Source of the DNA: Sulfurimonas marina
GTDB taxonomy: Bacteria; Campylobacterota; Campylobacteria; Campylobacterales; Sulfurimonadaceae
Length of the DNA stretch: 64,000 bases
Assembly (NCBI RefSeq): GCF_014905095.1
Contig: NZ_CP041165.1
Span: 806,001-870,000, forward strand
Direction: 5' to 3'
The notes beneath the pieces were generated by a model. It was not told where the DNA came from, made no database searches, and worked only from the letters and a program-made list of their open reading frames with translations. The translations under genes were made by a program, and so were the position numbers. Of the stretch, positions 3,835 to 34,806 are shown piece by piece. Position 1 is the stretch's first letter, and every line of letters starts with the position of its first letter.

Positions 3835-6131
<2,297 letters not shown>

Positions 6132-13985: not shown

Positions 13986-14678
13986 ATGAAAATAGCAATA
14001 ATGGGAGCAATGCCTGAAGAGGTAGCACCGATATTAGAAAAACTGGGTAACTATACAACTACAGAGTATGCAGGGAACAAGTATTATGAAGCAAACTATA
14101 AAGGTGTGGATGTTGTAGTTGCATACTCTAAAATAGGTAAAGTATTTTCTACATTGACTGCAACGACAATGATTGAGCATTTTGGATGTGAGAAACTTCT
14201 TTTTAGTGGTGTTGCAGGTGCAGTTAACCCAGAACTTAAAGTTGGTGATTTAGTTGTAGCTACTAAACTTTCACAACACGATCTTGATATTTCTGCTTTT
14301 GGTCATCCATATGGATATGTACCTGAGGGTTCTGTTTATGTAGAAGCAGATCCAGAGCTTATCAACATTAGTAAGGGTGTAGCTCAAAGTTTAGGAAAGT
14401 CAGTTCGTGAGGGTATTATTGCTACGGGTGATCAGTTTGTTGCCAATGAAGATCGCAAAAACTGGATCGGTGAAACTTTCAATGCCGATGCATTAGAGAT
14501 GGAAGGGGGCAGTGTTGCTGTTGTATGTAATGCTTTAAATGTACCGTTTTTTATTCTTCGTGCTATCAGTGATGCAGCTGATATGGATGCAAGTTTTTCA
14601 TTTGATGAATTTTTAGAAACGAGTGCAATTGAATCTGCAGAGTTCGTTATGAAAATGTTGGATGAGATAATTAAATAA
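13986..14678 (+). CDS. mtn: 5'-methylthioadenosine/S-adenosylhomocysteine nucleosidase
   Basis: 230 residues, normal for MTAN (Pfs). Cleaves adenine from MTA, SAH and, in Campylobacterota, 6-amino-6-deoxyfutalosine for menaquinone synthesis. Motifs: IGAMPEEV-like start (IMGAMPEEVAPI), SGVAGAVNP, GDQFV, ALEMEGGSVAVVC (substrate Glu) and RAISDAAD with the catalytic Asp. The stop overlaps the following ATG by one base. Confidence 0.96.
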   Translation: MKIAIMGAMPEEVAPILEKLGNYTTTEYAGNKYYEANYKGVDVVVAYSKIGKVFSTLTATTMIEHFGCEKLLFSGVAGAVNPELKVGDLVVATKLSQHDLDISAFGHPYGYVPEGSVYVEADPELINISKGVAQSLGKSVREGIIATGDQFVANEDRKNWIGETFNADALEMEGGSVAVVCNALNVPFFILRAISDAADMDASFSFDEFLETSAIESAEFVMKMLDEIIK

Positions 14679-15448
14679 TGGGAATCAAGCTATCTAAAAA
14701 GATTATGTCGAAACTCGGTAAGACAAATGCCGAATTTGGACTAATAGAAGAGGGTGATAAGATTCTTGTAGGACTAAGTGGCGGAAAGGACTCTTTAACA
14801 CTTGTACATGCTTTAAAAGAGCAACAACGACGTGCACCCTTTAAATTTGATTTTGTAGCGGTTACTGTTACATATGGGATGGGAGAAGATTACTCAAACC
14901 TTATTGGACATTGTAAAGAGTATGAGATACCGCACGTAGTTAAAGAGACAGAAACTTATGAGCTTGCAAAAGAGAAGATCCGTAAAAACTCATCATTTTG
15001 CAGTTTCTTTTCCCGTATGAGAAGAGGTTATCTATATACCGCTGCAAAAGAGTTAGAGTGTAATAAGGTAGCTCTTGGGCATCATTTAGATGATGCTGCA
15101 GAGAGTTTTTTTATGAACTTTATATATAATGGACAGTTACGCTCTTTAGCACCGAAATATACTGCTGAGAACGGTTTAGTAGTTATTCGTCCGCTTATTC
15201 AGATGCGTGAGCGTCAACTACGTGCATTTGTTGTTGATAACGGTATTGAAGCGATTGGCGATGAAGCCTGTCCTGCAATGCGTTTTGATGTCAAAATGCC
15301 ATATGCTAGAGCAAATACAAAAGATATGCTTGAAAAGATGGAAAAAGAGCATCCGCAACTGTTTACTTCATTAAATGCTGCATTTAAAAATATAAGTATT
15401 GATAGTTTTTTTCTAACTGAGAAGGATGAAGAAAAAGTAGGATTTTAA
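14678..15448 (+). CDS. TtcA-like PP-loop ATPase (tRNA thiolation family)
   Basis: 256 residues. N-type PP-loop SGGKDS (about residue 34-39) for ATP-dependent adenylation, and GHHLDDAAESFFMN typical of the TtcA/TilS group. TtcA makes 2-thiocytidine 32 in tRNA with a [4Fe-4S] cluster held by three Cys; here the first pair reads CSFFSRMRRG where I expect CxxCSRxRRG, so the second ligand is Phe, and the downstream Cys is in EACPAMRF. Either the cluster differs or this is another thiolase-like subfamily. Overlaps mtn by one base, last gene of the operon. Confidence 0.85.
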   Translation: MGIKLSKKIMSKLGKTNAEFGLIEEGDKILVGLSGGKDSLTLVHALKEQQRRAPFKFDFVAVTVTYGMGEDYSNLIGHCKEYEIPHVVKETETYELAKEKIRKNSSFCSFFSRMRRGYLYTAAKELECNKVALGHHLDDAAESFFMNFIYNGQLRSLAPKYTAENGLVVIRPLIQMRERQLRAFVVDNGIEAIGDEACPAMRFDVKMPYARANTKDMLEKMEKEHPQLFTSLNAAFKNISIDSFFLTEKDEEKVGF

Positions 15449-15587
15449 AATCCTATTTAAAAAGAGAGTCTCTTAGAAACTAGGAAGTTTCGAAAGAGAG
15501 ATAGTTTCCTTAGAAAATAAATTTTCTAAAGATGGATTCCTTAGAAACTAGAGAGTTTCTAAAGAAAGGGACTTCAAATTAGAAGTC
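15438..15587. repeat. Array of five adjoining hairpins between convergent genes
   Basis: This stretch joins the ends of the TtcA-like gene and a minus-strand lipoprotein gene. It holds an 18-base perfect palindrome (15438-15455, includes the TAA stop), then three related imperfect inverted repeats starting near 15472, 15508 and 15539, each of the form CTTAGAAA(C/A)T, short loop, A(G/T)TTTC(T/G)AAAG; the third is a perfect 9-bp stem with a 4-base loop (15541-15549 with 15554-15562). A further hairpin, GACTTC/GAAGTC (15570-15587), includes the lipoprotein stop codon. A simple terminator would not need three copies. Confidence 0.7.
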
Positions 15588-16166
15588 ACCTTTTGCAGCA
15601 CGCTCTGGAACTTTTTCCATTGCTTCTTTAACTTTTAATGCAGCTTCTAACATTTCTGGAGGAAGTGTTTTACCACCATGGATTGCTAATGTCATATCCA
15701 TACTTACTAGGTAAGCATCACCATTTCCATATGAAACATACATAATTCTACATGGCATAAAACCACCATAGTATCTTGAGTAGTTAAGGAATACTTTTGC
15801 AGTAGTTAAATTACATAAAGAGTAGATTCTTGCTTCTTTAACTTCATCTGGTGCAGCATCTTCTTTTGTATACATTTTCACATAACCAGTAAGTCTCATG
15901 TTGTATTCTTCAGTAAGTGCTTCAATTGATTCTTTTACTTCATCACCAGTGATACCTTCTTCAACTTTCCACTCTAGCATCATAGCTCTTGCTGGATCAC
16001 CATACTCTGTAACTTTAGTGAACATGTTGTCATATGCATCCATAGCTTTGTCATCAAGCGTATGTTGCTTAGTTACAGCTGTCCATCCCATATGCATAGT
16101 TGAACATCCTGACATTAAAAACGATAAACCAGCTGCTAATAATACAGCACTTAATTTCTTTTTCAT
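15579..16166 (-). CDS. Putative lipoprotein of unknown function
   Basis: 195 residues. Signal peptide with lipobox LMSGC (Cys about residue 21) and a polar residue after it, so outer-membrane sorting is plausible. The rest is soluble, mixed alpha/beta, with Tyr-rich segments (VFLNYSRYYGGFMPCRIMYVSYGNGDAYLVSMD). No domain recognised. AGGGGTATTT precedes the start and a TATTAT-like box lies about 45 bases further up. It stands alone between the hairpin array and an RDD gene. Confidence 0.75.
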   Translation of the reverse strand: MKKKLSAVLLAAGLSFLMSGCSTMHMGWTAVTKQHTLDDKAMDAYDNMFTKVTEYGDPARAMMLEWKVEEGITGDEVKESIEALTEEYNMRLTGYVKMYTKEDAAPDEVKEARIYSLCNLTTAKVFLNYSRYYGGFMPCRIMYVSYGNGDAYLVSMDMTLAIHGGKTLPPEMLEAALKVKEAMEKVPERAAKGDF

Positions 16167-16263
16167 AAATACCCCTACGTTTAATTTTGGAAATTAGGAG
16201 TATATTTTACTATGATAATATAAAAGTAGTTTTAAAATATCACAAACTTCTTACAAATTAATA

Positions 16264-16743
16264 TTAAGTGTATATAACTACGGTGTTAGCGAGCATATCG
16301 TGGAGAGATTGTTTATTTTTTGTAAAGATTATCATAAGAAAACCTAATCCAAGTAAAAGTGTGGAAGGGATATATCCTAATGATCTTGTAATCGCTTGTT
16401 TATTTGAGATATCTTCTAGTGTTTTTGCATCTACAATTTTAATGTTTACGATTTTTTTCCCGGGTGTAGCACCTTTAAATTGTTTCCAAAAAAGAACAGT
16501 TATGACTAAAACAGAAATTTCAAAAATAAGTTCCCATGTAAAAGATGTTTGGGGTTGTGAGTTAAGAGCATTAGCGTTACCAGCCATTGCCATTTGTAGA
16601 TTTTGTTGATATTGGGAAAAGTCAAACCACTCTCCGCCACTGATAAAATAGATAACTATACCAACGGGAAGAGCTAAAAAGAAAGTGTCTAAGAGTGAAG
16701 CTAAAAACCTGATACCAAAGCCGGCATATTTTATTTCACTCAT
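16264..16743 (-). CDS. RDD family membrane protein
   Basis: 159 residues. The hallmark start is seen: YAGFGIRFLASLLDTFFLALPVGIV (R and D of the first helix), followed by two further hydrophobic segments (about 79-95 and 127-146) and the family pattern KGATPGKKIVNIKIVD. RDD proteins are small inner-membrane proteins, some linked to ion exchange, most of unknown function. Lies 11 bases after the guaB stop in the same direction, so it may be cotranscribed with guaB. Confidence 0.88.
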   Translation of the reverse strand: MSEIKYAGFGIRFLASLLDTFFLALPVGIVIYFISGGEWFDFSQYQQNLQMAMAGNANALNSQPQTSFTWELIFEISVLVITVLFWKQFKGATPGKKIVNIKIVDAKTLEDISNKQAITRSLGYIPSTLLLGLGFLMIIFTKNKQSLHDMLANTVVIYT

Positions 16744-16754
16744 AGTTTTATAGA

Positions 16755-18218
<1,464 letters not shown>

Positions 18219-34249: not shown

Positions 34250-34325
34250 GTCTCGTTAGCTCAGCTGGTAGAGCACGTCACTTTTAATGATGTGGCCGAT
34301 GGTTCGAATCCATCACGGGACACCA
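34250..34325 (+). tRNA. tRNA-Lys (TTT)
   Basis: 76 bases including encoded CCA. Acceptor GTCTCGT pairs with ACGGGAC; D arm GCTC/GAGC; anticodon stem CGTCA/TGATG with loop CTTTTAA, anticodon TTT; T arm GATGG/CCATC around TTCGAAT. First gene of the cluster. Confidence 0.97.
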
Positions 34326-34339
34326 TTTTTAAACTAAAT

Positions 34340-34416
34340 GCGGTGGTAGTTCAGTTGGTTAGAATACCTGCCTGTCACGCAGGGGGTCGCGAGTTCGAGT
34401 CTCGTCCACCGCGCCA
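34340..34416 (+). tRNA. tRNA-Asp (GTC), copy 1
   Basis: 77 bases with encoded CCA. Acceptor GCGGTGG/CCACCGC, anticodon stem CCTGC/GCAGG, loop CTGTCAC with anticodon GTC. Identical over its full length to the copy at 34730. Confidence 0.97.
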
Positions 34417-34429
34417 TTTAGTATAAAAT

Positions 34430-34505
34430 GGGCGCTTAGCTCAGTTGGTAGAGCGCTACCCTTACAAGGTAGATGTCACTGGTTCGAGTCCAGTAGTGCC
34501 CACCA
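34430..34505 (+). tRNA. tRNA-Val (TAC), copy 1
   Basis: 76 bases with encoded CCA. Acceptor GGGCGCT pairs with AGTGCCC, allowing one G-T pair; anticodon stem CTACC/GGTAG with loop CTTACAA, anticodon TAC. Identical to the copy at 34639. Confidence 0.97.
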
Positions 34506-34533
34506 TTAACAATAACCCTTTGTTGACATAAGT

Positions 34534-34609
34534 GACCCTTTCGTCTAGTGGCCAAGGACACTATCACTTCATGGTAGTAACAGAGGTTCAAATCCTTTAG
34601 GGGTCGCCA
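34534..34609 (+). tRNA. tRNA-Glu (TTC)
   Basis: 76 bases with encoded CCA. Acceptor GACCCTT/AGGGGTC with one G-T pair, anticodon stem CTATC/GGTAG, loop ACTTCAT with anticodon TTC. Single copy, separating the two Val genes. Confidence 0.96.
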
Positions 34610-34638
34610 ATTTTGGTGTTTTCATTTTCCCATTCTAT

Positions 34639-34714
34639 GGGCGCTTAGCTCAGTTGGTAGAGCGCTACCCTTACAAGGTAGATGTCACTGGTTCGAGTCC
34701 AGTAGTGCCCACCA
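34639..34714 (+). tRNA. tRNA-Val (TAC), copy 2
   Basis: Base-for-base copy of the gene at 34430, with encoded CCA. Together with the adjoining Asp copy it makes the second half of an inverted-order duplication (Asp-Val then Val-Asp). Confidence 0.97.
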
Positions 34715-34729
34715 TTTCTTTTTACATGC

Positions 34730-34806
34730 GCGGTGGTAGTTCAGTTGGTTAGAATACCTGCCTGTCACGCAGGGGGTCGCGAGTTCGAGTCTCGTCCACC
34801 GCGCCA
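34730..34806 (+). tRNA. tRNA-Asp (GTC), copy 2
   Basis: Base-for-base copy of the gene at 34340, with encoded CCA. Last gene of the cluster, followed by a T-rich stretch and the chemoreceptor promoter. Confidence 0.97.

Follow-up and report, generated by a model that had tools for sequence, protein, structure and literature searches.

A five-hairpin array between convergent ttcA-like and DUF302 genes of Sulfurimonas marina as a probable stacked terminator

Five stem-loops stand head to tail between two convergent genes of Sulfurimonas marina, at 15435-15587 of the 64,000-nucleotide stretch analysed here (the window), filling the spacer and extending into both coding ends. We propose that this array is probably a hairpin-cluster, or stacked, terminator combined with a structured 3′ end, chiefly for the minus-strand gene, which encodes a lipoprotein-like protein with a DUF302 domain. 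Such a cluster would act, we infer, through termination of transcription or through protection of the RNA. Four readings of the array were offered in an earlier note on this DNA, and the stacked terminator is the best supported of them, on four grounds: where the array lies, hairpins spaced less than 15 bases apart, pairing and tails that favour one strand, and high codon bias in the DUF302 gene. The hairpin array exceeds chance, and in the sampled part of the genome its three related hairpins were conspicuous; even so, it is an ordinary case of a known kind. Its value lies in a clear multi-hairpin 3′ end, with no good U-tracts behind the middle hairpins, in a Campylobacterota genome, and in a cluster that local duplication seems to have enlarged.

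Layout and strand preference of the hairpins

The features of the locus, in window coordinates, are as follows.

14678..15448, plus strand: PP-loop ATPase gene, ttcA-like (256 aa; Pfam PF01171 ATP_bind_3, E 9.5e-21)
15435..15458, no strand assigned: HP0, stem-loop containing the ttcA stop codon (18-base perfect palindrome at 15438-15455)
15469..15499, minus strand: HP1, core hairpin (on each strand 12 pairs, with a small internal loop)
15506..15533, minus strand: HP2, core hairpin (on the minus strand 11 unbroken pairs, one of them G-U; -9.3 kcal/mol)
15537..15566, minus strand: HP3, core hairpin (on the minus strand unbroken, up to 13 pairs, one of them G-U; -12.8 kcal/mol)
15570..15587, minus strand: HP4, 6-bp hairpin containing the DUF302 stop codon (terminator-like in the minus-strand scan)
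15579..16166, minus strand: DUF302 lipoprotein-like gene (195 aa; PF03625, E 2.2e-5; called a lipoprotein on visual inspection of its start)

The PP-loop ATPase gene, which we take to be ttcA, and the DUF302 gene converge on a spacer proper of 130 bases (15449-15578), in which the array occupies the position of the 3′ untranslated region of the DUF302 gene; its outer hairpins, HP0 and HP4, overlap coding sequences. The earlier note had described three related hairpins and two more between convergent genes, and all five are present, including the flanking 18-base palindrome (TAGGATTTTAAAATCCTA, 15438-15455) and the 6-bp hairpin at 15570-15587. The core TTAGAAA that it assigned to the three middle units is likewise there, beginning at 15473, 15510 and 15541 in HP1, HP2 and HP3; of the two spacings that it gave, 31 bases holds, and the 36 becomes 37 when measured between core starts. 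The regions of HP1 and HP3 form direct repeats of 29 bases, 86% identical. Read along the minus strand, the gaps between hairpins are 3, 3, 6 and 10 bases, the last rising to 13 when only the palindrome is counted as HP0, and HP3 starts 12 bases past the DUF302 stop codon that HP4 holds.

Pairing favours the minus strand in two of the three core hairpins. HP2 and HP3, unbroken there by virtue of a G-U pair, carry a break or mismatch on the plus strand, where the HP2 stem is interrupted (-5.4 kcal/mol) and HP3 has one mismatch (-9.4 kcal/mol); the hairpin HPC of a related genome, G047, has the same minus-strand advantage. HP1 pairs equally on both strands and shows no bias. The opposite bias is seen in HP0, which forms 10 pairs including one G-U on the plus strand, its stem reaching 15435-15458, and 7 pairs (-5.2 to -5.8 kcal/mol) followed by CTTTTTCTTC on the minus strand. 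The stems contain few G-C pairs, 2-3 in the hairpin scan.

The tails show a similar lean. With fixed hairpin ends, the T-tail scores of HP1-HP4 are 1.50, 0.72, 1.33 and 1.26 on the minus strand against 0.66, 0.48, 0.09 and 0.67 on the plus strand, where random positions give a median of 0.80, a 90th percentile of 2.17 and a 95th of 2.68. The minus-strand tail of HP0 scores 2.65 or 3.39, depending on the stem end chosen, and ending HP0 at the palindrome gives a fair plus-strand tail as well (2.44). The U-tracts behind HP1-HP3 on the minus strand are weak (0.72-1.50), and the core hairpins are therefore individually no classical terminators; HP4, on the minus strand, was the one hairpin of the spacer that the terminator scan returned. 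The last hairpin of the DUF302 transcript is HP0, followed by CUUUUUCUUC.

These features suggest an order of events for the proposed stacked terminator. Transcripts of the DUF302 gene would first reach the stop-codon hairpin HP4, next the three related hairpins, 3-10 bases apart, and finally HP0 with CUUUUUCUUC behind it. Forming one after another in the nascent RNA, the hairpins would slow and then release the polymerase before it enters ttcA in antisense, and the stems remaining on the RNA would shield its 3′ end. HP0, lying over the ttcA stop codon, may in turn serve ttcA on the plus strand.

The DUF302 gene and its 3′ end

A strongly expressed DUF302 gene pointing at ttcA would need a firm stop, and the gene looks highly expressed, with codon bias serving as a proxy only: among 341 sampled ORFs, its codon adaptation falls at percentile 96.8 and that of its paralogue in the same genome (G000 C1:1449572-1450072) at 97.4, compared with 38.1 for ttcA. 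The reference set comprised the 21 plus-strand ORFs in 16 kb surrounding the ribosomal protein operon, a few of them not ribosomal. The Pfam domain itself is without known function, and our literature search found no paper linking Sulfurimonas with DUF302, nor any on bidirectional terminators with convergent genes, antisense and Term-seq. Of the 32 named loci encoding relatives of the DUF302 protein, 18 carry the name Sulfurimonas.

High expression also accords with a different use of the hairpins, namely that they are mainly stabilisers of the 3′ end of the DUF302 mRNA against 3′-to-5′ exonucleases, with termination left to HP0 or to Rho. The core hairpins, with no good U-tracts of their own, would suit such a division, whereas the last hairpin on the minus strand precedes CTTTTTCTTC; yet there this last hairpin has a stem of no more than 7 pairs (-5.2 to -5.8 kcal/mol), and sequence cannot separate stabilising from termination. 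We regard this alternative as unlikely, and return to the stacked terminator as the preferred reading.

Structured 3′ ends are a tendency of DUF302 genes across the genus. In a stretch that opens 18 bases ahead of the stop codon and closes 110 bases behind it, 56 distinct homologue ends, the window's own included and not mutually independent, carry a mean of 1.50 hairpins, compared with 0.79 per ORF end in the own genome (n=356) and 0.94 where the gap is at least 60 bases (n=105). tblastn matches stopping short of query residue 190 were left out of this sample. The stop codon lies within a hairpin at 20 of the 56 DUF302 ends, as against 49 of 356 ORF ends and 18 of 105 with gaps of at least 60 bases; in DUF302 genes the stop-codon hairpin is made of the last codons and bases past the stop.

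The extreme among the 56 is not the window's end but that of another genus genome, G127, with 4 hairpins within 110 bases of the stop. In that genome (L067 1400-1545), a DUF302 paralogue is convergent with a gene that by eye resembles one for lysyl-tRNA synthetase, and it is followed by four hairpins in a row whose sequence differs from that of the window's array. Side-by-side pairs of DUF302 genes were seen in six genus genomes (G022, G048, G049, G050, G052 and G075).

Occurrence and origin of the array

Both strands of the region fold far more stably than expected. In the RNA folding check that the earlier note had proposed, the minus strand of 15430-15600 reached -52.3 kcal/mol where shuffles averaged -28.8 (z -7.1) and the plus strand -49.6 kcal/mol where they averaged -32.9 (z -4.9), and none of the 200 dinucleotide shuffles made for each strand was as good (0/200 each). 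The core-hairpin pattern with up to 2 mismatches has 5 matches in the window where 0.55 are expected, a count that 0/100 shuffles reach; four of these are two array hairpins read on both strands, and the fifth lies at 4505.

Arrangements of this kind are rare among the spacers surveyed. The sample, 464 kb of the own genome, joined the window to 20 further stretches of 20 kb each. With ORFs picked by a simple greedy method standing in for genes, it yielded 184 spacers between 20 and 600 bases in length. Although six of the 184 contain at least one pair of hairpins with a common 8-mer, three hairpins all pairwise related occur only between ttcA and DUF302. This spacer also has the most hairpins of the 20 convergent ones (4 on the minus strand in that scan, with 3 in each of five others). 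Among the 164 non-convergent spacers, seven hold at least 4 hairpins, each of them longer than 200 bases, and three of the five inspected seem by eye to contain tRNA or rRNA sequence.

The earlier note had raised a repeat family of this genome, to be sought by a whole-genome search for the core. Two pattern searches of the 2.26-Mb genome gave no second array, and we reject the idea. The hairpin pattern with up to 3 mismatches has 9 matches, 3 of them at the array and the other 6 set against 4 for the reversed-pattern control; exact arms with 2-12 bases between them occur at 5 places, 2 in the array, the other 3 equalling the 3 of the reversed control. Outside the array, matches are thus about as frequent as in the reversed-pattern control. 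This bears on the suggestion that the array is a set of palindromic operators bound by a protein on DNA, which would draw on three similar palindromes spaced 37 and 31 bases apart. Such a core shows no clear genome excess over the reversed control (6 vs 4; 3 vs 3), and the array sits at 3′ ends, not at a promoter; we consider a protein-binding role very improbable.

It appears equally improbable that the spacer encodes a structured small RNA. Strong folding on both strands would suit such an RNA, but none of the Rfam 15 families reaches its gathering score at the array: the sub-threshold matches at E up to 1 are mir-684, a microRNA model and the best of them (21.9 of 100 bits), and sR52 (16.3 of 50). 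The promoter scan listed no sigma-70-like site inside the spacer, a scan that a -10-only promoter would escape, and promoters with only a -10 box are usual in Campylobacterota. Moreover, the array as a whole is matched in one relative only, G047. For the small-RNA and the protein-binding options alike there is no positive evidence beyond folding and palindromes. No tRNA or tmRNA was found in 14000-17000; elsewhere in the window, at 34250-34803, six tRNA genes stand in a row, including two pairs of equal score that may be duplicates.

Whether relatives conserve the stems was a further question of the earlier note, and the answer is divided: the hairpin cluster is kept in G047 but is not genus-wide. 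Of 135 genus genomes, four match at E up to 1e-8, the own genome counted; the match spans the whole query only in the own genome and G047, while those in G127 and G013 lie at the DUF302 end. We therefore reject genus-wide conservation of the array. At E up to 1e-3, 20 of 80 genus genomes match, mostly at the DUF302 end. Short matches to parts of the array in G013, G061 and G060 (27, 29 and 41 bases; E 5.7e-4 to 8.4e-4) were considered as hairpin arrays and rejected, being by eye single sequence matches elsewhere.

G047 keeps the hairpin cluster while its sequence turns over. Its DUF302 protein is 97% identical and the surrounding gene order is the same; its spacer has 116 bases compared with 130, and 91 of the 135 alignment columns are alike, with 24 gap columns. 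Identical bases number 691/771 in ttcA and 557/588 in DUF302, and fourfold-degenerate sites agree at 58/94 and 68/81, respectively; set beside the genes in this way, the spacer sequence is not specially conserved. The minus-strand fold of the G047 spacer nevertheless has a z of -5.8 (0/200 shuffles). The counterpart of HP3 has a stem of 13 bp, perfectly paired; the position of HP1 is taken by a second core hairpin and that of HP2 by a weak, different one, and HP0 is retained with outer pairs gained and inner pairs lost.

By eye, the minus-strand U-G pair of HP3 corresponds to C-G in one G047 hairpin and to U-A in the second; on the same inspection, this series preserves minus-strand pairing and passes through a plus-strand mismatch. 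The co-variation signal is weak: across five aligned hairpins 88.9% of cells are paired (35/500 shuffles as high) and 2 of 13 pairs are changed on both sides (18/500 shuffles reach that), these counts having been made on a MAFFT alignment in which the 3′ arm of G047_HPC is one column off.

The three-fold likeness of the core hairpins most likely arose by local duplication, perhaps with the DUF302 stop region itself as the source. One account would deny the result any function past a single hairpin, and would explain it as a side effect of template switching and local tandem duplication at a terminator. The 29-base repeats of HP1 and HP3, 86% alike, and the rapid turnover and length change in G047 (130 vs 116 bases) are what it would lead one to see; the retention of the cluster in G047, with a minus-strand wobble replacing a mismatch, speaks the other way, and we think this account improbable, somewhat more so than the stabiliser.

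Under the stacked-terminator reading, the array may conceivably have been built by repeated copying of DUF302's own stop-codon hairpin and 3′ untranslated region, a proposal that we hold only tentatively and think on balance doubtful. On the minus strand, TTTCTAAGGAA-type segments of the array align with the 3′ ends of the DUF302 paralogues in the own genome and G047, stop codon included. The alignment with the own paralogue scores 60, equalled by 2/2000 shuffles of the array and 3/2000 of the target, and that with the G047 paralogue scores 50 (2/2000 and 2/2000). The paralogue 3′ end of G127 was also tried and rejected as not significant (score 37, reached by 651/2000 and 602/2000 shuffles). 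The paralogue alignment is a lead only, as the own and G047 paralogues look orthologous and shuffles break the TTTC/GAAA palindromes. If true, it would illustrate on a small scale how stacked terminators come about, with a highly expressed gene growing a terminator from its own end; without the duplication reading, the array is ordinary gene-end anatomy.

Comparison with known systems

The classical rho-independent terminator is a G+C-rich stem with a U-tract at once behind it. HP4 and HP0 resemble it on the minus strand in their pyrimidine- or U-rich tails, whereas the core hairpins are A+T-rich and without a good U-tract, and the combination of a G+C-rich stem and an immediate U-tract is found in none of them.

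Repetitive extragenic palindromes (REPs) are dispersed in many copies through a genome. The array is like them (PMC12306157) in being palindromes between genes, several in a row; it is unlike them in occupying one place only in the whole-genome searches, which returned no such set of copies.

The closest likeness is to hairpin clusters, a form of intrinsic terminator described by Gupta and Pal (2021, PMC8355165), in the light of which the earlier note held too strictly to one hairpin per terminator. In that work, hairpins separated by gaps of <15 bases form a cluster; 98% of correctly identified sites lie <=80 bases from the stop, and a poly-U or poly-A within 10 bases accompanies 31% of cases, a minority of such units. 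Measured against this description, the array differs in that three of its hairpins are mutually related and in its setting between convergent genes. It agrees in its short hairpins with gaps of <15 bases, in its closeness downstream of the stop codon, at or just past it, and in core hairpins that lack strong U-trails.
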